The notes beneath the pieces are model-generated. The model had not been told where the DNA came from. It saw only the letters and a list, made by a program, of their open reading frames with translations, and did no database searches. A program made the position numbers and the translations under genes. From Ciborinia camelliae (Eukaryota > Ascomycota > Leotiomycetes > Helotiales > Sclerotiniaceae): a DNA stretch of 64,000 nt. Below are positions 4,127 through 48,000 of the stretch, piece by piece. How positions within the stretch are numbered: the first letter of the stretch is position 1; every line of letters begins with the position of its first letter. The DNA is taken from positions 666,659-730,658 of the forward strand of contig JANPYM010000017.1 in the NCBI GenBank assembly GCA_025890175.1. Direction: 5' to 3'.

Positions 4127-5023
4127 CTATATTCTTTTAACAGCAAAGACGGGTCGAATCTCAAAGATCGAACATCTATTATCCATAATATCAAACCTTA
4201 GCTCTCTACCAACTGCTGTCATTACATCGTAAAGATGATCATTCCGGCTATCTTTACTCCCCTTCCCCTCAAAGATCTTTTTTTCATCATTCCAAACGAA
4301 AGCCCCGCATGGCGCTTCTCTGCACTCCCACTGCGACTGCACAGACGGCACGGGAGGGTGACATGTTTTTTCCATATCCGATCGTGTGTCGATGATAATG
4401 TATAATACTTTGAGATTGATAAAATTAAAATACATCCCCCTTATGTAGTCAGGATCCCTTTCAAGTAAATCTTCCCGTAAAGCAAGACGCGTGACTTCAT
4501 TCCATTTACCATGAGCCAGATTGACCGTATCGAAATATGAATATATATTATAAGGGTAGTGAAAGAGAATCCTCGATTCGTCATACGGTACATAAAGTAT
4601 ATCACTCTCTGGGTCGAAAGGACGTGCTAGGATTGGATATGGTGTTTTCTGACATATTTTGATACCGTGCCTGCGAGCCCAACCAAGAACGATGTCGCGA
4701 GCTTCGCGGTTCACAAATATGAGAGGCGTGCTAATCTGACTATAATCTAGAAGTTCGTGACAAAACCGATAATTTGTTCTAAGATCTTCAGCGATAAAGT
4801 CATCGTTTAATTCGTCATCGCAGGATTCGGGGTCAGACTCGGGGAAAACAATTCGAGCCTGCCAAAGTTCTTCATTGTAGAAATAGAGGGTTGGCGAGAA
4901 TTCTGATGGGAGAGCTTCACGCCATATTTGACTGCGTAGTTCAAATGCAAGGTTGGAGAAGAGGGGAAATGTAGAAGTTGAGGTGCCTGTTTTTGTGGTC
5001 GTTGTCACTGTCGCTGCAGCCAT
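4127..5023 (-). CDS. 2EXR-domain protein
   Basis: Single-exon gene of 298 residues. After a short Thr/Ser-rich start, residues about 19-39 read FPLFSNLAFELRSQIWREAL, the hallmark opening of the fungal 2EXR domain, a family of unknown function found in large numbers in leotiomycetes. Further on are INREARDIVL-like (here VNREARDIVLGW) and DILYVPYDES motifs typical of these proteins. The start ATG at 5021-5023 gives a standard N-terminus. There is no signal peptide or membrane segment. It stands alone between AT-rich regions, consistent with an expanded, mobile family. The family call is firm; no function is inferred. Confidence 0.8.
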   Translation of the reverse strand: MAAATVTTTTKTGTSTSTFPLFSNLAFELRSQIWREALPSEFSPTLYFYNEELWQARIVFPESDPESCDDELNDDFIAEDLRTNYRFCHELLDYSQISTPLIFVNREARDIVLGWARRHGIKICQKTPYPILARPFDPESDILYVPYDESRILFHYPYNIYSYFDTVNLAHGKWNEVTRLALREDLLERDPDYIRGMYFNFINLKVLYIIIDTRSDMEKTCHPPVPSVQSQWECREAPCGAFVWNDEKKIFEGKGSKDSRNDHLYDVMTAVGRELRFDIMDNRCSIFEIRPVFAVKRI

Positions 5024-6591: not shown

Positions 6592-8571
6592 TTAAAGACT
6601 GTTAGCTGCAGTCGCAGCTTTGAGCACCTTCTCCACATTCTCGTGCCTTGGCTTCAGATATATATGGAAAGGGACAGGAGATCGACCTGACAGTCCATCA
6701 TATTCCTTGAGATCGATTGGATGTTCAGGTACAGACTCCATTTTAAAGGCCCAAATCATGCGTGAAATAGACAGCCAGATCTCACGCTCAGCGACCCACA
6801 TACCGGGGCAAATACGCCGCCCAGCGCCAAACATCCAGTTATCTCGCTTATATGGATCAGACAAATTGGAGCTATCGGCTGATGTGAGGCTATCATTTAA
6901 GTAGCGGTCAGGCTTTTGTATGAGAGTCTAGTTAGCTCTAAATCTTATTACAAAGACGTTAGATCACTTACGTTGAAAGTCATGGGGTCCGGATGACGCT
7001 TTTCGTCATGATGCATAGTCCATGTGTTGAGGACCAACGCGGTATCTTTCGGAATGAACTTTCCCTTGTATGTGAAGGAATCAGATGAAAAATGTGGTGT
7101 AATCAGCCAAAAAGGGTTGTGGCAACGCTCTACCTCTTTCAAGATGGCGTGGCAGTAAGGTAAATTCTTTTCGTCTTCGACGCTAGGAAGGCGGTCTCTG
7201 CCGACAACACAATCGAGCTCTTCCTGGGCACGCTTCTGGATCTCGGGGTAGGAAGGAATTAATGCCGAGAACCATTGAATAATAGAAGCGGTGGTCTCAA
7301 CGCCACCGATCATAAAGGCGGATGAGAGGATTGCCAAGTCTAGGTCATCAAGATTCTCTTCTGTGCGCACTCGAAGTACAGTCTGAGCAAGACAATCAGG
7401 GACTTCCTCGCCAGCTTGCATACGTTGCTCGATATCCTTGATCATACCACCATAAGTACTAACGAGATCACGATGGAGCTTGCGTCCACGCGAACGTATG
7501 CTTGTGGGCAGATATTGAAGAAGAGGAACAAAATCGACTAGGTTAGACATGGGCCCTGTGAGGTTCCTATATTACAGTAAGTGAATGAGGTTTTGAGGTT
7601 ATATTGTAACGAGAACCTGTTACATGAACTCTCGGCTTAGCCTTAGGGATTCCTTGACTATGGGGTCTTCGACCGTGTTCGTTCTTGTTCCGAAGACAAT
7701 AGTTAACATAACGTTGAGCGAGCAGCGGCCGGCAAATGTCTGAGGATTGACAAGTGCTGTCCCGTTTTTGCTTGCATCGAAAAGGCATTTGACCATGTCG
7801 GTGGCCTCACGGTCTAGCACATGTGTGTATTTGTCGACTTCTTTTATGTGAAGCCAGGTTATGGCAAGGCGGCGGTGCTGCTTCCTAAAGTGAAATGAGA
7901 TGTTAGTCTTAGATTCATGGACTGTGGTTTCAAAATCAAGGCAGCAAAAAGAATATGGAGACAAACCAGGTTTCATTATAAGGTGTGGCTGTGATCCCAC
8001 GACCAACGAAAACGGTTTGGCTCTTGATAAACATTTCCTTGCGTGATGAGAAAACAGCACCGTTAGACACCATTAGATCCTTAGCAATTTCCGGGCTAGA
8101 GATAATGAGAAAAAGCTGATTGCCCAACCAGATGGTATATAGATCGCCGAACTTCCGAGCCCATTTGTCTAGAGTAAGCTCCGGATAATGTGACAGAAAT
8201 GGAAAAGAACCTTAATGTTTGGAAAATTGAGTTAGTGCCGTAGATATTCTTCACAGGAGGTCTAAAAACGAACCAATAATAGGAAGCCCAATGGGTCCAT
8301 CTGGAATTTTGTTGCCCGACGTATCTTTCAAATTGCTGGAATTGTACATGTACGAAGTGAGTAGGACAGCAATTAAAACGGTAAATAAAATAAATGTGAA
8401 ACAGTGGTTGTCTATTGTAGATGGTAGGAGTAATGACTCTGGCATATTAATGCTGGCTTCAGTTGTGTTGTCCATTTTGTAATAGACTTTCTTGAATTGT
8501 AGTTGATAGAAGAGTGTAGAACCAGGTCCAAGTGATATGGTTGTAGAGATGGCAAATAGCTGGATACTCAA
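6592..8571 (-). CDS. Cytochrome P450 monooxygenase (E-class group I type)
   Basis: Microsomal heme monooxygenase. Exons, all frame-consistent: 8274-8571, 7967-8210, 7624-7884, 6972-7566, 6592-6912 (stop TAA at 6592). An N-terminal anchor (CFTFILFTVLIAVLLTSYMY) precedes a hinge with PDGPIGLPIIG. The C-helix has a W followed by KQHRRLA, the I-helix GGVETT, the K-helix ExxR as EVER, the PERF region NPDRYL, and the heme loop FGAGRRICPG with the axial Cys. From the upstream ATG the protein has 572 residues; an ATG at 8475 gives 540, a more usual length, and may be the true start. The donor of exon 1 (GTTCGT) is unusual. The K-helix is followed by CHNPF where WRP-like sequence is common. No secondary-metabolite partners flank it. 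The substrate is unknown. Confidence 0.87.
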
Positions 8572-25432: not shown

Positions 25433-27456
25433 ATTGAATGAACTTTGATTGGTGTGGATGAGATGGTAAAGATAGAGATGGATATGGAAGATAGGTAAAT
25501 AGAGATGAGGCTGATGAGAATGATGATTGAATATCGTGGAGGCAATAGATCTTATATAGCTTCAAGATTCCATATTCCATTTTGATGCATTTTCAAAAAT
25601 AGATACTGTACCTATTTGAACATGTACATCTTGCCGAAACGGGCGATACTATCACCTGCGTATGAAAGTATTCAATAACCTTATTTATATCTATTCTTGG
25701 CATAAAATACAGTTTTTTCGATAGGAAAAGTATAATTCCCACGCCATCATCCATGATACTTGCGGATTTTCAACTCGGGCTAACACACCGACATTGATAC
25801 TGATGGCTATTTTGAGCGATATAACAACCCGAAGATGTCATGGTCCATGGACTGTCATGGACATGATGGAATTTGGAAGTAAGGAGTCCGACTATCCGAG
25901 ACCGAATAGATACATCCGACACCACGTACGTAGGTAGGGAAACATCAGTGATTCAGCTCACGCATCGCGGGGTATTGCGTATTTCGTATCTGCATAGCCA
26001 CTTGGCCAATAGTCCGTTGGACGTCGCGGAAATATTATGTCGCCGCAGTAATTTTCATAAATTTCCATCATGGGAAAGCTTATGTGAGGTTGGAATAAAA
26101 GAGGCTGCAGATAAATTGCGGGGTTCAACATGACAAACTCGTGTTGGGTCACTAGGGTGGCTCGTATCTTGATGATCTACGTTCAGGTGATGAGATACGA
26201 GAACGCACGTAGAAGATCCATTCTTCTTCATCTTGGCATTTGGAAAGGCTGGAATCAGGATAATTGGGTATAATCCGTTGTGGGGAAGGAAATGTATCAG
26301 ATTGTAGATATTGATATGGTTAAATTTTGAGTCTTGACTCCATATTCTTGCTATACATACTCATCGTACATATCGGTGAATAACATGGCAGTGTCAACTA
26401 TAGCTTCCGTCCATTCCGTTATCAGAAGGTTATGTTGAAGCGAAATCTCATGGGAATTTTTTTAAACGTTGGAAGTCAACAAGGTACTAGGTAGGGGCTA
26501 GGGATGGTAGGTAAGGTTATGTATATTTAGAAACAAACGCCGTCAACGCCGTCAACACCATCAACGCTGCCAACGCTGCCAGGTTCCAACGCCAAGTAGA
26601 TTGCCAACACACCTCAATGTTAGAGTCTAGATCCTGGAGATCAGACCCTATTTTTTCCATTTTTCCCATCTTTACCATTTTTCCAGGGTGTTTTCTAGCA
26701 TATGCAACTCTAAATCCATAAGCGACATGCACCTATAAAGCTCTCATCCCTGAAATTACCCGCCATTCCCCCCACTAAACTTATCTCAGTAGCGATGGAA
26801 TCATGGAACTTCAATGTTCCAGGTTCCATCATGGAAGTTTGGAACCTTAGAACTTATTAGAACTTAGAACTTAGAACTTAGACTTACCTAGAATCTAGCT
26901 TTTCACAGCTTCTAGCCTTCTTCGGCACCTTAGTTCAACGTCAACCAACCTCTTACCAACCAACCTCGTACCGCAGTACACCATGACACATACAATTGGT
27001 TGTCTTGGAAAATCCGTCATGAGTCTTTTTCATTTTGGTCCTGGTCTATTGTTAAATCACATCATGAAGGCTATTCATATCCGATTATATAGGGCTGGGC
27101 CTAATTGAGATTGACCAGGGACCTAGATAAGGTTAACTTGTAGTAAGTAAGGTTACTGCACCGTATTCTTTCTGTCACTGCTAGGTACTAGGTACTTGCT
27201 ACTTGGTACTTACTTGGATGGTGAAGTCACGGGTCAAGTTGCACGAAAAACCTTCAATGTTCCTCCCAACCTCACTTCATCTCATCCCATCTCATCTCAT
27301 CTTATCTTTCTCTTTCTGAATTTATTTGTATTTGCATTTATTCTCATATCGTCTTATCCTCAAATTTCAATACATTCGAATGATTGATTGTTGTCGACGG
27401 TTCCCTTCATCTTGAGATTCCTATTATTCCCCACTACAGTACACCCTTTGGTCAAT
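25433..27456. promoter_or_regulatory. Shared upstream region of two divergent genes
   Basis: About 2 kb separates the ATG of the Tyr/Gly-rich gene (-) from that of the UstYa-type gene (+). No coding exon is seen. It holds TTAGAACTTAGAACTTAGACTT repeats at about 26845-26885, CAACGCCGTCAACGCC-type repeats at 26535-26580, and TCATCTCATCCCATCTCATCTCATC at 27275-27302 in the leader of the UstYa-type gene. Any co-regulation is an inference from the divergent arrangement. Confidence 0.4.
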
Positions 27457-28489
27457 ATGTCTTATTCTCCATTTTCAGACAAGTACAATGAAGTACCTGG
27501 ATCAGAAGATGGTGAAGGATTACTCCCGAATACCGAGTCAACATATAAACAAACTCCCAGACGAAACAGTATCCTTTGGTATATCTTATCACTACCGGTG
27601 ATATCGTTATTGTCAGTCGCTTTTGGAATTTGGATTGGTGCTCGATTTGTGGCGAATCCTGCCAAATTATGTCCAACCTATGTGCAACATTATTGTATGA
27701 CCTTTCAAAACCCATCAGTCTTGATCTCCCATTCTAATTCGAAAATAGCTCCTATTCTGAAAGATGTTGATACTTCGTATGGACCAGTGATGTTCAATGG
27801 GTCATTCATGAAGGAAAATGACTTCAGATTAAAAGCAGGCCCTGTGGTAGATAAAGCCTGGGCAAGCTTAGGAGTACACTGTCAGTACACTACCACAGTC
27901 AATTGACTCAAGCAAAGCTCACATTCCATAGATCGAAGTTTGGCATTACCGGCGAGCGAAGGAGAAAAATCCGGATTAACATCTGCTCATGTTCAAATCA
28001 ACGAAAAATACGGAGGAGGATTTCCTGTAAACGTGGAAGGACTACATCATCTACATTGTCTCAACCTTGTGAGACAATCCCTCTACTACAACTACGATTA
28101 TTACCACAAACAAGGGAAAGGAGCATTTGTCAATGCAGACAATATCGTTCAATTTCACGTTTGTAAGTTTTTACCCTCAAACCCACCTTTCATTCTTTCT
28201 CCCTTCAAATCCCCTAATCAACCCACAAAAATCTAACACCCCCTCCCCAGCCCACTGCCTTGACATCATCCGCCAACAACTCATGTGCCAAGTCGACACG
28301 GGAGTCCTCGGCCAAGTCTGGTGGGATAAATCCAAACCCCAAGCGTTCGTCGACTTCAACACGGAACACAAATGCAAAAACTTCGATGCGATCAGACAAT
28401 GGGCCGAGGAGAGACAATTGCCCGCGGCAGGACATCCGGATTTCTTGCAGAAACCTAAGGAGAGTGATGTTCTTGAGAGTATCCCTTAG
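27457..28489 (+). CDS. UstYa-family (DUF3328) oxidase-like membrane protein
   Basis: Three exons, 27457-27880, 27932-28162 and 28251-28489, all joined in phase 1, give 297 residues. A single membrane segment (ILWYILSLPVISLLSVAFGIWIGARF) is followed by a lumenal domain. Both family HxxHC motifs are present: HHLHCLNLVRQ in exon 2 and, across the second splice, HVSHCLDIIRQ. Other family signatures are YRSLALP, EGEKSGLTSAHVQINEKYGG and VDTGVLGQVWW. UstYa proteins in Aspergillus and relatives carry out oxidative cyclisation of Tyr-containing ribosomal peptides (ustiloxin-type dikaritins) or other oxidations; many are orphan paralogues. I chose the ATG at 27457 rather than upstream non-ATG codons. 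The Tyr-rich secreted protein next door makes the context interesting but does not prove a cluster. Confidence 0.88.
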
Positions 28490-36833: not shown

Positions 36834-36839
36834 AAAAAA
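36834..36839 (-). terminator. RNA polymerase III T-tract
   Basis: Six consecutive T residues on the minus strand, 8 nt after the end of the tRNA, followed by more T-runs (36823-36832). This is a normal Pol III stop and supports the minus-strand tRNA as a real transcription unit. Confidence 0.8.
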
Positions 36840-36857
36840 GAATGGTTGCCGCGAGAG

Positions 36858-36868
36858 GGGTTCGAACC
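36858..36868 (-). promoter_or_regulatory. Pol III B box
   Basis: Minus-strand GGTTCGAACCC matches the B-box consensus GGTTCGANTCC at all but one position and overlaps the T-arm, as usual. Confidence 0.85.
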
Positions 36869-36922
36869 CTCGCATCTTTCGATAATGGTGAGTTCTGAAG
36901 AACTTAAAACCATCGCCTTAGA

Positions 36923-36981
36923 CTATGGGTTGTTTGTTAGTATGGATTGGGATTTGCATAATTTGAAGGGGGACTATTTAC
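36923..36981 (-). other. Spliceosomal-type intron inside the tRNA D-loop
   Basis: 59-nt insertion with 5' GTAAAT, a perfect TACTAAC branch sequence whose branch A lies about 15 nt before the 3' end, and 3' CATAG. The length and branch spacing match introns of protein genes in this window (for example 19384-19469, branch CTACTAAC). It lies directly 3' of the A box, so both internal promoter elements are undisturbed. Removal leaves exactly GAGCGG-TCTAA in the loop. Confidence 0.75.
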
Positions 36982-36992
36982 CCGCTCGGCCA
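36982..36992 (-). promoter_or_regulatory. Pol III A box
   Basis: Minus-strand TGGCCGAGCGG fits the A-box consensus TRGYNNAGYGG completely. Its last base is the last base before the 59-nt insertion. Confidence 0.85.
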
Positions 36993-36999
36993 TCACGGC

Positions 37000-38766
37000 A
37001 GTTGTTTGTTTGATGGAGAGTCCGGCGGAAAGTTTCAATATATATAGGCTTTCAAAACGTGAGGGGGAGTTAAATCAAACACCCCTTTTTGGAAAATGGG
37101 AATTTCGGTTGTATATAGAGGTTTTCTAATGAGGTGATGTAATGGGGATGCTCAATTTCTAAATAATTTGCCGATGACGCTTGGTATAGGGACTAATTTG
37201 ACACTATTTTTGGTGACCACTAATGTTATGATATACTTAACGTCTAGATGATTTCAACATGTCATTGTCTTCACGGATCTGCATTATATATAAAGCATTA
37301 ATTGTCAAAAGGCATTTTTTTCATTGCTAGTAAAATTTCTCGTGGCTGTTATAAAACTAAGAATATCATCCATCCTTTAATTACAAACTCTTCTAGTCGA
37401 TAACCACCTGACAGAATTAACCTGTCTGGACCAAGATAAATAAAACTGCAGAGGGAATGGCAACTGCCACAGCTTAAAGCTAGAATACATCTAGAAAATG
37501 CGAACTGGGTAACGCATTCGCTTTTTTATGCTACGAGGCTACGATGCTACGCATGCTTCCACATATAAGTATCCAGAGTCTCAATACGCAAGGTGCAGAC
37601 GCGGTTAAATGAAGTGGTATTTGTAGACCTGTAGTTAGATCCAATGCAATGTAGAATATTGTAATCAGTACTTTCGCCGAGTTAACTTCCTCGCATGAAG
37701 CCGCAAAATCGTATAAATACTCCAACATAATAAGGATGTCCAGGATCAAAAGGCAGTATGAAAGTCAAAGGGTGACTTGCCAGAAACTCTGTCCAGCGCA
37801 TCATTTTGGTTGTTTAGCACTGAACTAAAATAAGGTCCCTTGACTTCTACCTTCAAGGTTATCATTTGTCCCGTCATTGAATAATCGCTGTGTTGAGCGT
37901 TCCCATTGCTCATTTTTACATTGACCTTACTGTTAGTTAATATAAAAAGTAAACCGACAAAACCCTCGTCAAATCGACCTCGACACATCTTTTGAGTTCT
38001 TGATCGAAATAGATAATTTGTTCGGAAAGTTGTAGAGGATGTCACGGTGGGTTGATTGGTGTATACTAATAACATTGGTTGGCTTTCATTATACTCTTAC
38101 CAATCTAAGGTACATTAATAGAGGATGGATTGAATTGAGATTGAAATTGAATATTACTTTCTAATACTTATAAGTTAATGTTCAGTTTCTTGATCTCAAA
38201 CCAGAGTTTAATCTGATCGAAATAAATATATCAGCTGGGCTACCTCCTACCTATTGATGGATGATTACATAACAGCTTATGGCATAAGTGGCATAAGCTA
38301 ACCCCGCTAGAAATCGTTATCGGTGCCAATCTAAGAAGCCAAGGCGCCAAGGTCTGGTAGCTCTCCACGATATCTTCCCCTCCAACACTTCCGTCTCGTA
38401 AAAGTTTATATCTCTCCTTGAATTGCGAATTTTATATATACTGTACTTAGTAGAGTAGTACTCCTATGATTTATGAGTAGGTAAAAACTGGTAGATGTTC
38501 ATCTTTTCTTCTCTCCTTTGTTCAACAAATCAAGTTCTCGAGGTATGATGTTTAGCGACGTCATAGGTCCGGCCATAGCCATCTGCAAGGTAACGAACGG
38601 GAGATTGATACCAACTTTTCTCTTCAGAGTCAAATTAATGTATTTTCTACTTGCCAGATACATTCTCAGTCAACTCCATCTCTTCAAATATGCATTGATT
38701 TAGAACTCTCATCTACCATTTCACTCATGCCAATTTACTAATCTCCTCAAACCTTCCTCTTGCACC
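37000..38766. other. Intergenic, nothing recognised
   Basis: AT-rich DNA without a supportable gene. Short minus-strand open frames at about 37531-38075 show no domain and no convincing splice structure. Confidence 0.5.
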
Positions 38767-40917
38767 ATGAACGATCCAGGTCTCGATGAACCCATCTCCA
38801 ATGACGCGGATAATGTAGAGAATCAGAAGCGCGATGAGCGGGATGAGACCAAGGAAGATGAGCAAGCTTTCCTCGAGCCAAGGTATGTAGAAGGAAATGT
38901 TCCGCAGATACTTCCCCTTAGGATTGTGGGCTGTGCTAACAAATGATTCTTCAGCCGTTGGTGGTTTGCTAGTACCGCATTTCCTCTCGTCGCTGGTACA
39001 TTTGCACCCATGGCCTCGGCATTCAGTATTTGCGCATTGGTTGTACACTGGAGAGTATCGATACCACCGGGGGGAGTGGAAGAGCATGGAGTATATATCG
39101 ACGATCCGAAATGGTATGCCTCGGATGAATGTCAGAAGGGTGTTATGTTGATACGCTGAAACAGGTTGATCGGTATAAACGCAGCAGAATTGGCAATTGC
39201 TCTCATTTCGAATCTATTTCTACTTTTGAATATGGCGGAAAGAGTTCGGTTTTCGATCGCACAACCCATTACCATCATCGGTTGGTATTTATCCTCATTT
39301 ACATTGATTGGGTTGACAGCTTGTACGCATGCCTCTGGACCTTTAACACTTTCATCACCTCCGGATCATGCCTACACACAAGCATTCTACTATGCCCTAT
39401 TTGCTGCCGGTCTTTACTTCTTAGTGGCCAGTTTGATGGTGGTTACTGTTTATGGAGCATATAAAGGTCATTATCCAAAGGAGTTCAAATTGACTATGAG
39501 TCAGAGAACTTTAATGTTACAAACTATCAGTTTTCTCGTATATCTACTTGTTGGTGCGGCGGTATTCGCCCATATCGAATCTTGGCAATATCTGGATGCG
39601 GTTTATTGGTGTGATTTTACACTTTTAACTGTCGGTATCGGGGATTATGCGCCAATGACACATTTGGGAAGAGGTTTGTTATTCCCATTTGCAATCGGTG
39701 GTATCATCATTCTAGGTCTGGTTATTGGCTCAATTCGATCGTTGGTATTAGAACGTGGAAAGGTTAAGCTCGGCGCAAGAATGGTGGAAAAAGAACGAAT
39801 GCGTATTTTAAAGAAGACTCAGAGAAAAAATGTTCAAGTATTGAAGCCTGTCGCAACAACAGGAGAATCTCCAGAGTCAAGCAACAACCCCATCAACAGC
39901 GATGATCTTACAGAAAGAGAAAGACGTCAACAAGAATTTGACTTAATGAGACGAATCCAAGAAAAAGCAGCTACTAAACGTCGTTGGACTTCTTTAATAA
40001 TCTCTGGAACTACATGGTTAATACTTTGGTTTGTTGGTGGAGCAATATTTCGAGTTACGGAGCATACACAGAACTGGACTTACTTCCAATCTCTCTATTT
40101 CTCGTATACCTCTCTTCTAACAATTGGATACGGTGATTTCTACCCACAATCCAATTCCGGGAAACCATTCTTCGTCTTCTGGTCTCTCCTTGCAATACCT
40201 TCCCTTACAATCCTTATAAGCAATATGGGCGATACAATCATCAAAGGAATCCGTGATTTTACTCTCTGGATTGGAAACTCTACTATTCTACCCGGCGAAA
40301 AAGGGGTCAGACATTCCCTCAAAGAAACAACAAATAAAATGACTTTCGGAAAGCTATTCAAAGTATCCGAACTCCCAGCAGCTCCTCGCAATGTAGACGA
40401 GTCTACTGGGCGTCGTGCCGCGAAAAATGTTCCGGAATCCGAGGCGCAACGCGCGGAAGACAATCTCGAAGATACCGAGACTAAACAGGCCAGAGAACAA
40501 GGAGTGGAAGATGATAGGTTGCCTGAAAATCGACATGATTATCATTGTCTCCTCATCACGGAAATCGGAAAAGTCATGAAACATCTCAATAGTTCTCCAC
40601 CTCGCAAATACACATTCGATGAATGGGCTTGGTATCTTAAATTGATAGGTGAGGATGAGAGTGTGGCGGGGTATCATAGGAGACCGATTGTGAAATTGAG
40701 GAGGAATCATGATGATGATGATGATGAATTGGGTGGTGCGAAAGGTGATGGAAGAGAGGATAGGGGGGAGAAGTGGAGTTGGGCGGGAAATCGAAGTCCG
40801 TTGATGGGGAATAAGGAGGAGAGTGAGTGGGTGCTTGAGAGGTTGCATAGGACGTTGGAGAGGGAGTTGGATGACATGAGGAGGGAGGATATAGAGAGAA
40901 GGGGGAAAGGAGAATAG
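38767..40917 (+). CDS. TOK-type two-pore-domain outward-rectifier K+ channel
   Basis: Plasma-membrane potassium channel of the fungal TOK1 family. Exons 38767-38882, 38955-39113 and 39165-40917 give 675 residues. The first splice falls in a Ser codon and the second in the Trp of the conserved DPKWLIGIN block. Several transmembrane helices precede the first pore. The two selectivity filters are TVGIGDYAP (about residue 247) and TIGYGDFYP (about 411), each preceded by a pore helix (DFTLL, YTSLL). Between them lies a charged, Gln/Arg-rich loop of about 100 residues, and after pore 2 the helix IPSLTILISNMGDT. The C-terminal 200 residues are hydrophilic, with an acidic stretch and a run of Asp. 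The 8-TM/2-pore layout is diagnostic for TOK channels. Confidence 0.92.
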
Positions 40918-45039: not shown

Positions 45040-48000
45040 CGTCGTTCATGATATACTTCGATCAAGCGTGGTCCTGGGCAAGAAAGCTTCCAAAATTAAG
45101 ATCGAAGCTCGTAGGGCAGTGATGGGAATAGCGTTCATTCGCAAAGTTTATTCATGGTTGGAGTTTGTTCAGTGCCTGGTGAGGGCATGTTTTTCGAGGC
45201 GAAGAAAAAGAAGATAAGAGAAGAAATAGAAGAGAAGGATTCTGCTATTGACGTAAGGAATCCCTACTTAGTCACCAATCAGTCGCTCCATCATGTGAAA
45301 TCTAGTGAACATCCTCCAATCCACATTGCCGGGGGCAAGCCCTTATTTTAGTTCGGATTATCTCCACTTACTGGTTCTTGTTGTTTATTAAACCCTACCC
45401 ATTTTGCGAGGAAATATGGTTGAATTTGATCCCAAAGAAACCTCATTCGAAGTGAGGGAAGTGGACTGGATCAAGAAGTGGATTATGGGTCTTAAACGTG
45501 TAGGTACAGGAGAAAATGTATACGAATTGGTAAGTTCAAATCTTGTTGTTGTGGGAAGAGGCCCTTTGAATAATTTTCTAAACAGATTATTAGTCAATCT
45601 CGTCCAGGACAGCCGAGAAAAAAGTAAAATCTCCCCGTGGAAATATAATTGCAGAACTCTTACAATGGCAAGTCTACTACGCAACCCTGTTTAGTTGTGG
45701 CACATCAGCTTTTAGATACCCAAATATTCATACTCGGGAATTCAATTTTCGTTAGGATATACATGACATTGGGTTGTATCTAAGTTCCCGCTTCAGTCCC
45801 GTTGCCTCTAGAGAAGCTCTTGATTGCACTATGTTCTCTGAGGAGTCTTAAGCACCTTTATCAACATAATAGAACTTCAGCATGCACGGAATTTGGCTAG
45901 TTTGATTTAGCAAAATTGGTGTCTTCTTGGCCTAACTCCGGACAGGAAGTATCCCCTATATATTGTAAAGAGCATATGCTAATAGGACTTCCTAGTCATA
46001 TATTGCAGAGGACGCAACTCAATGGATCAATCACTTCAAGATTACCGGACTGCCGATCTAGATATTTCAGCTACCTGTGACATCGAATCTGTCACCTTTG
46101 GGCGCTTGACTGGAGGCTGTTAGTTGATAACTCTTGTATTTACTGCATCTGTGAATAGTCTTACAAGATCCGAGGCCCAGGCGTTCAATTTTGATTTGAG
46201 ATCTGCTGATCAGTCCTACCCTATATGAGTCTTATCTGCAATTATTCTTCCCAAGTTGATAACCCTTTTAAAAATAGATTGATCTACTTCTCCTTCCCGT
46301 TCTTCAGAAGATCCAAACAATCAGAATTAGTGGCGTTCACCATCCTCCATCAAAGTTTCTCGCCAGGGAACTTTCCAATGCGCCTAACCTCCAGACCATC
46401 ATATTCAGAGGAAATAATGTGAAAAATAACGAGACATCTCATAAGGCACTTGCTTGGGAACTCAAAAGAAGGCTCTTTGCCCTCGTTGGGCGATATTGTT
46501 GCTGGAGAACGAACGGCGCCATGGAGGAGTGGATGTGGATGCAGGTCTAAGACGCGTTATCACAAAGTCTACCGAGTTGAGACAGGCCGGTAGAGAAACC
46601 TAAGGCTAGGAAGCACTTGCGGTATCAAGATAGCCAGATAATTTGCTGTATAAAGTCGAAGGTTCTCAGCGAGGGGCTGTTTTTTAGGGCTGTCGTTTAC
46701 TGCATCGGCGAGCAAATGGGCTCCGTCTTGAGGATATAGTATTTGACGAACTTGAGTAATATAGCATGTCCACCAGTGGCGGATTCTACCATTTCATTGT
46801 GCCAGATGAAACTGGAGAATCAAACGTGTTGAAATTTCTTTATATTCTGTTCATTTGTAAAAATATCATCTTTGTGAAAGGTATATGAATCTGTCCGCGA
46901 AAAAAGTGGCCGATTGTATAATTTCATTGTTCCAAGTAGAACTAAACAACCAGAATTCTCGAATCTGATTAACATCCTACAAAATACTTACAAAAAATAT
47001 TTGTTATTTTATTCTGTTATAGACGTGATTTGATTTGAAAGCATTTTGATGCATAAACACGGACGAAGTGGTGTACCTACTACGCGAATGTTTACGCGAT
47101 AAGCCTGTACGCGCAAGGAAAGTGAACGGAGGCGAGAACTTCTTGATTAAAAGGATACATCCTCGACCAGTGCTGATGTCTTCGGATGGATTTGAAAAGG
47201 GGCGCATTGGTGTCACCCGAAAGATGAGTGAACTGGACATGAATAGGGTGAAACACTGAAGTGAGAGTAAACTCTGGTGGAGGCTCGTGGCGGTTATGAG
47301 GTGAAAATTGATGGTCAAATTTCCATTAAGGGCGGAAGATTAATTGAACCCATTTGAGGATGCCTCCGCTACGCTCTATGCGTTTTTGAGCAACGATTAG
47401 ACTAACAAGAAAGAATTAAACCCCTAGTAATCAAAAGCAAAAGTTATCAGTTCTTACAGATGGAGAGGTAGCACGTGGCTGGTTAGCTTTGGGACAAGAT
47501 TTTACATAAGTTTTCACTCATGACGCGGGGTTTCAAGGCAACCCGGAACCGTGGAAGCTTGGAAGTGCATGGACGTTGTTGACAAACTACTCCACTACTC
47601 AGGGGTATTCTGATGGGACAAGGGCTTAGCGAGCATCAAGCATTTCTACCGGAATTTAACCTAATTACTTTCCGCGTATCCATCAATGTTCATTCCCGGT
47701 ACTTCAGTCTTTACCCAATAATGGTTTATGGTAGATCCCAGTCGCCTGATTAAATCAATATGCAGAATGTATCGACGGTGGTGGCACAGCTAACTCGCTA
47801 TTTCAAAATGGATGGTAGCTTTGGCAGGACATACAACATTATCAAAAACTCTCTACATATAAGGATAATTTTTAAAAGCGAAAAATGAGAACCCTTTGAG
47901 ATATTATTCTATCAAATCTCCGAACTAATCCCCATTGAATAATACTGGCTGAGTCTGGCTCACTTTTTTGCAGAAAATCCGAAGATCTCACCCAAAAATA

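Follow-up and report, generated by a model that had tools for sequence, protein, structure and literature searches.

The analysis of a 64,000-nt stretch of Ciborinia camelliae DNA (hereafter, the window) reveals a nuclear tRNA-Leu(UAA) gene whose D-loop is interrupted by a 59-nt insert, in addition to the standard intron of the anticodon loop. The sequence features of this insert make it probable that it is a real spliceosomal intron of the U2 type residing in a working Pol III tRNA gene. It also appears rather likely that the gene encodes a natural nuclear tRNA that would be matured by the spliceosome and then by the tRNA splicing endonuclease and ligase, two unrelated systems acting in series.

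A tRNA-Leu(UAA) gene with two inserts

The minus strand of the window at positions 36847-36999 matches the Rfam tRNA model (RF00005) end to end, with 35.1 bits over model positions 1-71. Two loops of this match are enlarged: the D-loop spans 63 nt and the anticodon loop 15 nt, where the model has 3 nt in each. The locus presents the cloverleaf, the UAA anticodon, the long variable arm, the A and B boxes and the T-run terminator of a tRNA-Leu(UAA) gene (Table 1). The initial annotation, made from the letters alone, had described a nuclear tRNA-Leu(UAA) gene with a standard 12-nt intron after position 37 and with all stems, both boxes and the T6 terminator intact, and the Rfam match, ARAGORN and the positions of the boxes and terminator agree with it on each of these points. 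The 12-nt intron lies where standard tRNA introns do (position 37/38), and the 59-nt D-loop insert does not.

Table 1. Features of the tRNA-Leu(UAA) gene (positions in the window) and of the two U3 genes (positions in their own loci).
Feature	Location	Strand	Description and evidence
tRNA-Leu(UAA) gene with two inserts	36847..36999	minus	153 nt; spliced body 82 nt; Rfam, ARAGORN
Exon 1	36982..36999	minus	18 nt, ends GAGCGG; acceptor 5' strand, D-stem 5' strand, D-loop through the GG pair
A box	36992-36982	minus	wholly inside exon 1
D-loop insert, proposed spliceosomal intron	36923..36981	minus	59 nt; sequence, intron matrix, paralog gap placement
5' splice site of insert	36981-36976	minus	GTAAAT
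Branch-site motif of insert	36936..36942	minus	TACTAAC, branch A at 36937; sequence
3' splice site of insert	36927-36923	minus	CATAG
Exon 2	36903..36922	minus	starts TCTAAGGC; remaining D-arm, anticodon arm 5' side, through position 37
Anticodon	36906-36904	minus	TAA
Standard tRNA intron	36891..36902	minus	12 nt, after position 37; ARAGORN
Exon 3	36847..36890	minus	anticodon arm 3' side, long variable arm, T-arm, acceptor 3' strand, discriminator A
B box	36868-36859	minus	
Pol III terminator	36834..36839	minus	T6
Upstream TATA-like element	37039..37046	minus	TATATATA; starts at -47 (-47/-45), within the range of other tRNA genes here
U3 gene	L106, 1501 to about 1840	minus	
U3 gene	L107, about 1410-1762	plus	

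Direct reading of the insert confirmed the GTAAAT, TACTAAC and CATAG motifs that had been reported within it, with the branch A lying 14 nt from its end. The splice junction (GG/T) immediately follows the two guanines of the D-loop, at the 3' boundary of the A box, and the internal promoter is hence spared by the insert. ARAGORN, which permits introns in the anticodon loop only, did not report a tRNA in the unmodified gene, with or without introns allowed, and, after excision of the 59 nt, identified a tRNA-Leu(taa) whose anticodon loop holds a 12-nt intron. The program also accepts a 58-nt removal, so the boundary of the insert was set by comparison with a paralog and by the GT-AG ends, and not by ARAGORN.

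Comparison with the uninterrupted paralog

A whole-assembly DNA search with the gene as query returned the gene itself and one further place, locus L072 on contig C5, which encodes a tRNA-Leu(UAA) with an uninterrupted D-loop (GAGTGGTCTAA) and a standard intron of 22 nt. When a single 59-nt gap was slid along the alignment with this paralog, the top agreement (35 of 38 bases) was reached at gap positions k=15, 17 and 18. Positions 17 and 18 yield the same product by virtue of a shared G, and only k=18 leaves GT...AG at the ends of the excised segment; the default gap of MAFFT falls at k=14, four bases further 5', with 34 of 38. Removal of the GT...AG segment gives the D-loop of L072 except for one base, a C for a T. 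Exact removal therefore restores a Leu D-arm, as the initial annotation had stated, and yields a plausible tRNA as judged by its sequence and structure.

The exons of the two genes differ at four bases in the MAFFT alignment, with the D-loop taken according to the best gap placement, a number so small that it constitutes weak evidence when considered alone. These differences include a compensatory pair (C3-G70 in the window gene, U3-A70 in L072) and a base forming a wobble pair in the window gene (U5-G68). None of the four breaks a stem, and the gene thus does not present the damage by which a pseudogene would be recognized.

The insert scored as a spliceosomal intron

The signals of the insert were compared with a matrix of the 5' splice site, branch site and 3' splice site derived from 16 introns of the same genome, namely ten from Ras-type genes, three from the window, one from U6 and two from U3, with the insert left out. 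The ten Ras introns were read by eye from six of 12 Ras-gene stretches, the other six being dropped on account of unclear junctions, and the three window introns were chosen by eye from 50 rows. In one of the dropped stretches, L104, an intron is probably present whose branch site is poor. The insert attained a score of 19.7, and five of the 16 host introns, each scored with itself left out, had equal or higher scores; the matrix is small and leans towards the consensus, since the introns were partly picked by it, and these scores are hence optimistic. Both the length of the insert (59 nt, against 51-98 nt in host introns) and the distance from its branch site to its 3' end (14 nt, against 11-23 nt) are in range. 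Its ends, 5' splice site, branch site and 3' splice site therefore fit those of host U2-type introns, in line with the earlier observation that these signals sit as they do in the mRNA introns of this genome. The A at position +5 of the 5' splice site counts against an intron. The insert has a composition of.41 A,.31 C,.07 G and.22 T.

Among the 497,764 59-mers present in the window and in loci L001-L062 on both strands, 1,461 have the form GT...AG. Five 59-mers score at or above the insert, and they correspond to four distinct strings, the insert itself appearing twice (in the window and in L031); excluding these two copies, three of the 497,764 attain the insert score. The pattern GTR...RCTRAY...YAG was found in 14 of 498,580 59-mers, and in three when TACTAAC was required, the two copies of the insert being included in these counts. 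The true chance rate should lie below these figures, as they contain the copies of the insert and some of the remaining instances may be real introns. A complete signal set at the exact boundary is not expected of a random insert.

Search for introns in U6, U3 and other structured RNAs of the same genome

Pol III transcribes U6, and the mRNA-type introns of some fungal U6 genes had been pointed to in the initial annotation. The genome of C. camelliae provides an instance of its own. A search for U6 that scored 47 of 3418 candidates, and whose gene number is thus a lower bound, identified one gene over the Rfam cut-off, at L092 (G000:C25, match 1810274-1810380; minus strand, about 1501-1680 of the locus). 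The Rfam match covers positions 1-105 with a mispaired 5' stem, because an intron sits in the 5' domain. The gene reads GCCTTCGGGCATT, followed by a 53-nt segment, GTAAGT...AACTAACGATTCAATAG, and then by TGGTCAATTTGAAACGATACAGAG; the signals of the segment (GTAAGT...AACTAAC...AATAG) are those of an mRNA-type intron, and the first exon is judged to be roughly 13-20 nt long. The presence of such an intron in a Pol III gene makes spliceosomal removal from a Pol III transcript very likely here, and it is accordingly very likely that at least one Pol III RNA whose first exon is very short undergoes splicing in this fungus. The genome also contains a decayed U6-like copy, L093 (minus strand, about 1501-1640; G000:C6:53104-53206; 29.9 bits), which keeps remnants resembling the ends of the U6 intron (ATGTGAGTG...GAGTAACGATTTTATGG) and probably arose from intron-bearing DNA.

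At least two U3 snoRNA genes were detected (Table 1), both with an intron at the same place, of 74 and 90 nt; the search scored 24 of 716 candidates, and the number of genes is again a lower bound. One of these introns carries GTGAGT...TACTAAC...CGCAG and has a composition (A.31, C.41, G.07, T.22) near that of the insert. The intron of L106 is strikingly rich in C and A and poor in G. At the single RNase P place and at one of the two SRP RNA places, no GTR...RCTRAY...YAG was detected at the lengths tried, and both places match their models end to end; the corresponding searches scored 15 of 2461 and 26 of 174 candidates, respectively, and their gene numbers are likewise lower bounds.

Fit to Pol III transcription and proposed maturation

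T runs in the insert reach a length of two at most. Runs of four or more T are present in six of 13 curated protein-gene introns, and the average mRNA intron would consequently risk termination by Pol III, unlike this insert. Upstream of the gene lies a TATA-like element (Table 1), and TATAWA occurs in 27 of 71 tRNA flanks of the genome, mostly between -60 and -36. The distance between the starts of the A and B boxes is 124 in the window gene and ranges from 51 to 129 across the 29 tRNA loci measured, where the longest spacings belong to odd, tRNA-like loci; L088 has 109. The body of L088 matches Ala(TGC) genes, yet ARAGORN names it Cys.

From the anatomy of the gene, its restored D-arm, its intron-grade signals and the introns of U6 and U3, we infer a path of transcription, splicing and ordered processing that would lead to a functional tRNA. 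Pol III would transcribe the entire 153-nt unit, given that the A box is in exon 1 and that the T runs of the insert do not exceed two. The spliceosome would then excise the GT...AG segment, with the branch at TACTAAC, and GG would be rejoined to TCTAA, allowing the D-arm to fold. The tRNA splicing endonuclease and ligase would subsequently remove the standard 12-nt intron. The spliceosomal step most likely precedes that of the endonuclease, because Sen54, one of the endonuclease subunits, is probably in contact with the D-arm and the acceptor stem, according to PMC3978253, and because the D-arm introns of a red alga supposedly leave before the anticodon intron: one tRNA of Cyanidioschyzon merolae is described as also having an anticodon-loop intron, with the D- and T-arm introns thought to leave first (PMC9602550). 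Two features of the precursor bear on the spliceosomal step. The first exon comprises only 18 nt and a leader that is presumed to be short and uncapped, which was counted against the intron reading. Structure prediction for the precursor has the GGG at the 5' splice site base-paired to a C run of the insert, which could hinder U1.

Alternative explanations

The same anatomy might have arisen if an intron, or an intron-like sequence, had entered one of two Leu(UAA) genes and were not productively spliced there, the gene on contig C5 supplying the tRNA. Such a dead copy would be tolerable given the intact paralog, and ARAGORN misses the window gene as it stands. The initial annotation had itself named an intact second tRNA-Leu(UAA) gene, combined with a lack of spliced molecules in small-RNA data, as grounds for abandoning its proposal, and the former half of this pair is present in L072. 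Nonetheless, the stems, boxes, upstream TATA and terminator of the window gene are intact, its few differences from L072 include a compensatory pair and spare every stem, and a random insert would not be expected to show the complete set of intron signals precisely at its boundary. The look of a dead copy in this genome is that of the decayed U6-like L093. We hence regard a non-functional copy as an unlikely explanation. An assembly or sequencing artefact seems scarcely credible: the assembly comprises 46.2 Mb in 27 contigs, a misplaced second copy of the insert was not found in it, and splice signals would not be put in exactly the right positions by an error.

The remaining alternatives concern the nature of the insert. 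It might have been copied from the 5' flank of a tRNA gene, perhaps its own, with splice signals that arose by chance or were refined later. An alignment of its 3' part (TCCATACTAACAAACAAC) to the 5' flank of the same gene scores 12.5, a value reached by one of 500 shuffles, and the flank-like log-odds of the insert (0.138) exceed those of 13 protein-gene introns (at most 0.123) and of the U6 intron (0.035), falling in the upper quarter of 71 tRNA flanks. However, the flank of L088, one of 59 other flanks, scores higher (15.0), indicating that the match to the own flank is unspecific, in a ranking that is rough insofar as strand was not corrected for in the flanks of L001-L030, which supply 30 of the 59. 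Moreover, no more than 18 of the insert's 59 nt take part in the top alignment with the own flank, the composition of one U3 intron is closely similar (0.07 G and 0.22 T), and chance splice signals are rare among 59-mers, all of which makes a flank origin improbable. A non-canonical bulge-helix-bulge intron, of the type that the tRNA endonuclease excises in red algae and archaea, has precedent in the D-arm introns described for C. merolae (PMC3978253, PMC9602550). It is nevertheless highly improbable here. The insert alone has no predicted structure (MFE 0 kcal/mol), and its best junction forms two of the four pairs of the central helix, a value equalled or exceeded at 4,791 of 5,000 random positions, whereas the same crude test finds four of four at the 12-nt intron. 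The central 4-bp helix with junction bulges is thus lacking at the insert, and the spliceosomal signals would be left unexplained.

A search with the insert against one assembly, with E values up to 10 and simple repeats skipped, returned only the insert itself and no donor copy. An introner-like mobile intron was also considered and rejected, as multiple genomic copies would be required and only the insert itself was found in the assembly searched.

Relation to known introns

Introns of mRNA type are described in the U6 snRNA genes of Schizosaccharomyces pombe and other fungi (cited in PMC5832005). Like them, the window gene is a small-RNA gene of Pol III that carries spliceosomal signals, a situation also encountered in U6 of the same genome; it differs in its host, since U6 is an snRNA that does not need a second splicing system. 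For U3, a survey reports introns in 138 of 310 genes, short, nearly all GT-AG and with RCTRAC branch sites (PMC5832005), and the same source states that, as of 2017, frequent interruption by introns was known for U3 and U6 alone among small structured RNAs. Short introns with such signals in a structured RNA are common to U3, including both U3 genes found here, and to the window gene, but the U3 host is a snoRNA and is not matured by the tRNA endonuclease. The D-arm introns of C. merolae and archaea share with the insert their location in a tRNA D-arm. Unlike it, they are of the bulge-helix-bulge kind, are cut by the tRNA endonuclease and are devoid of spliceosomal signals.

To our knowledge, natural nuclear tRNAs are treated as beyond the reach of the spliceosome. 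In yeast, a tRNA precursor engineered to contain a pre-mRNA intron was reportedly spliced by the mRNA pathway (EMBO J, 1990); that precursor was an artificial construct, whereas the gene analyzed here is natural. A literature search covering titles and the starts of abstracts among the matches listed, with few subscription journals, did not return any natural nuclear tRNA with a spliceosomal intron. As far as searched, the novelty of this gene therefore resides in the combination of known machinery and a known intron type with a previously unreported host RNA.

If the insert is indeed a spliceosomal intron, part of the tRNA-Leu(UAA) pool would depend on spliceosome activity, and intron gain would extend to tRNA genes. 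A Pol III transcript with a first exon of 18 nt in the gene body could then be spliced, and tRNA maturation could be tied to mRNA splicing. tRNA gene finders that allow introns in the anticodon loop only are liable to overlook genes of this kind, as happened with ARAGORN in the present case.

Other tRNA loci and genomic neighbourhood

No other tRNA with an interrupted D-loop was detected in 59 of the 61 listed tRNA places, where ARAGORN recognizes all 59 at the place itself, each with at most an anticodon-loop intron; this listing scored 62 of 2,182 first-look candidates and omitted the window's own gene, so that more D-loop-interrupted tRNAs are possible. A Leu/Ser-type A box followed by GT (a 13-mer) occurs twice, in the window gene and at one place without a tRNA match. 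Exact 20-mer scans yielded no matches in viral contigs and one in genome contigs, in an Omnitrophota record with no tRNA features around it by eye, and did not identify a fungal ortholog. Five tRNA-like genes (L068, L073, L079, L089 and L090) carry unusually long inserts of about 60-90 nt near the anticodon, and their bodies do not resemble those of the remaining tRNAs of this genome; two of the five, L079 and L089, are separated by 2 kb on C3.

The potassium-channel gene adjoining the tRNA gene (39160-40914) shows 84% identity with a protein of Sclerotinia borealis, 82% with S. nivalis and 77% with Botrytis tulipae, and this one protein comparison points to a probable Sclerotiniaceae-like leotiomycete. 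A fragment of large-subunit rRNA, the sole rRNA match in the window, is located at 47073-47359 on the plus strand (eukaryotic model positions 675-954, 81.2 bits). The window also harbors UstYa-like open frames (27388-28486, plus strand), which appear to belong to a single intron-split gene, and a cytochrome P450 gene that spans two open frames (6951-8072, minus strand), a co-occurrence also seen in fungal secondary-metabolism regions.
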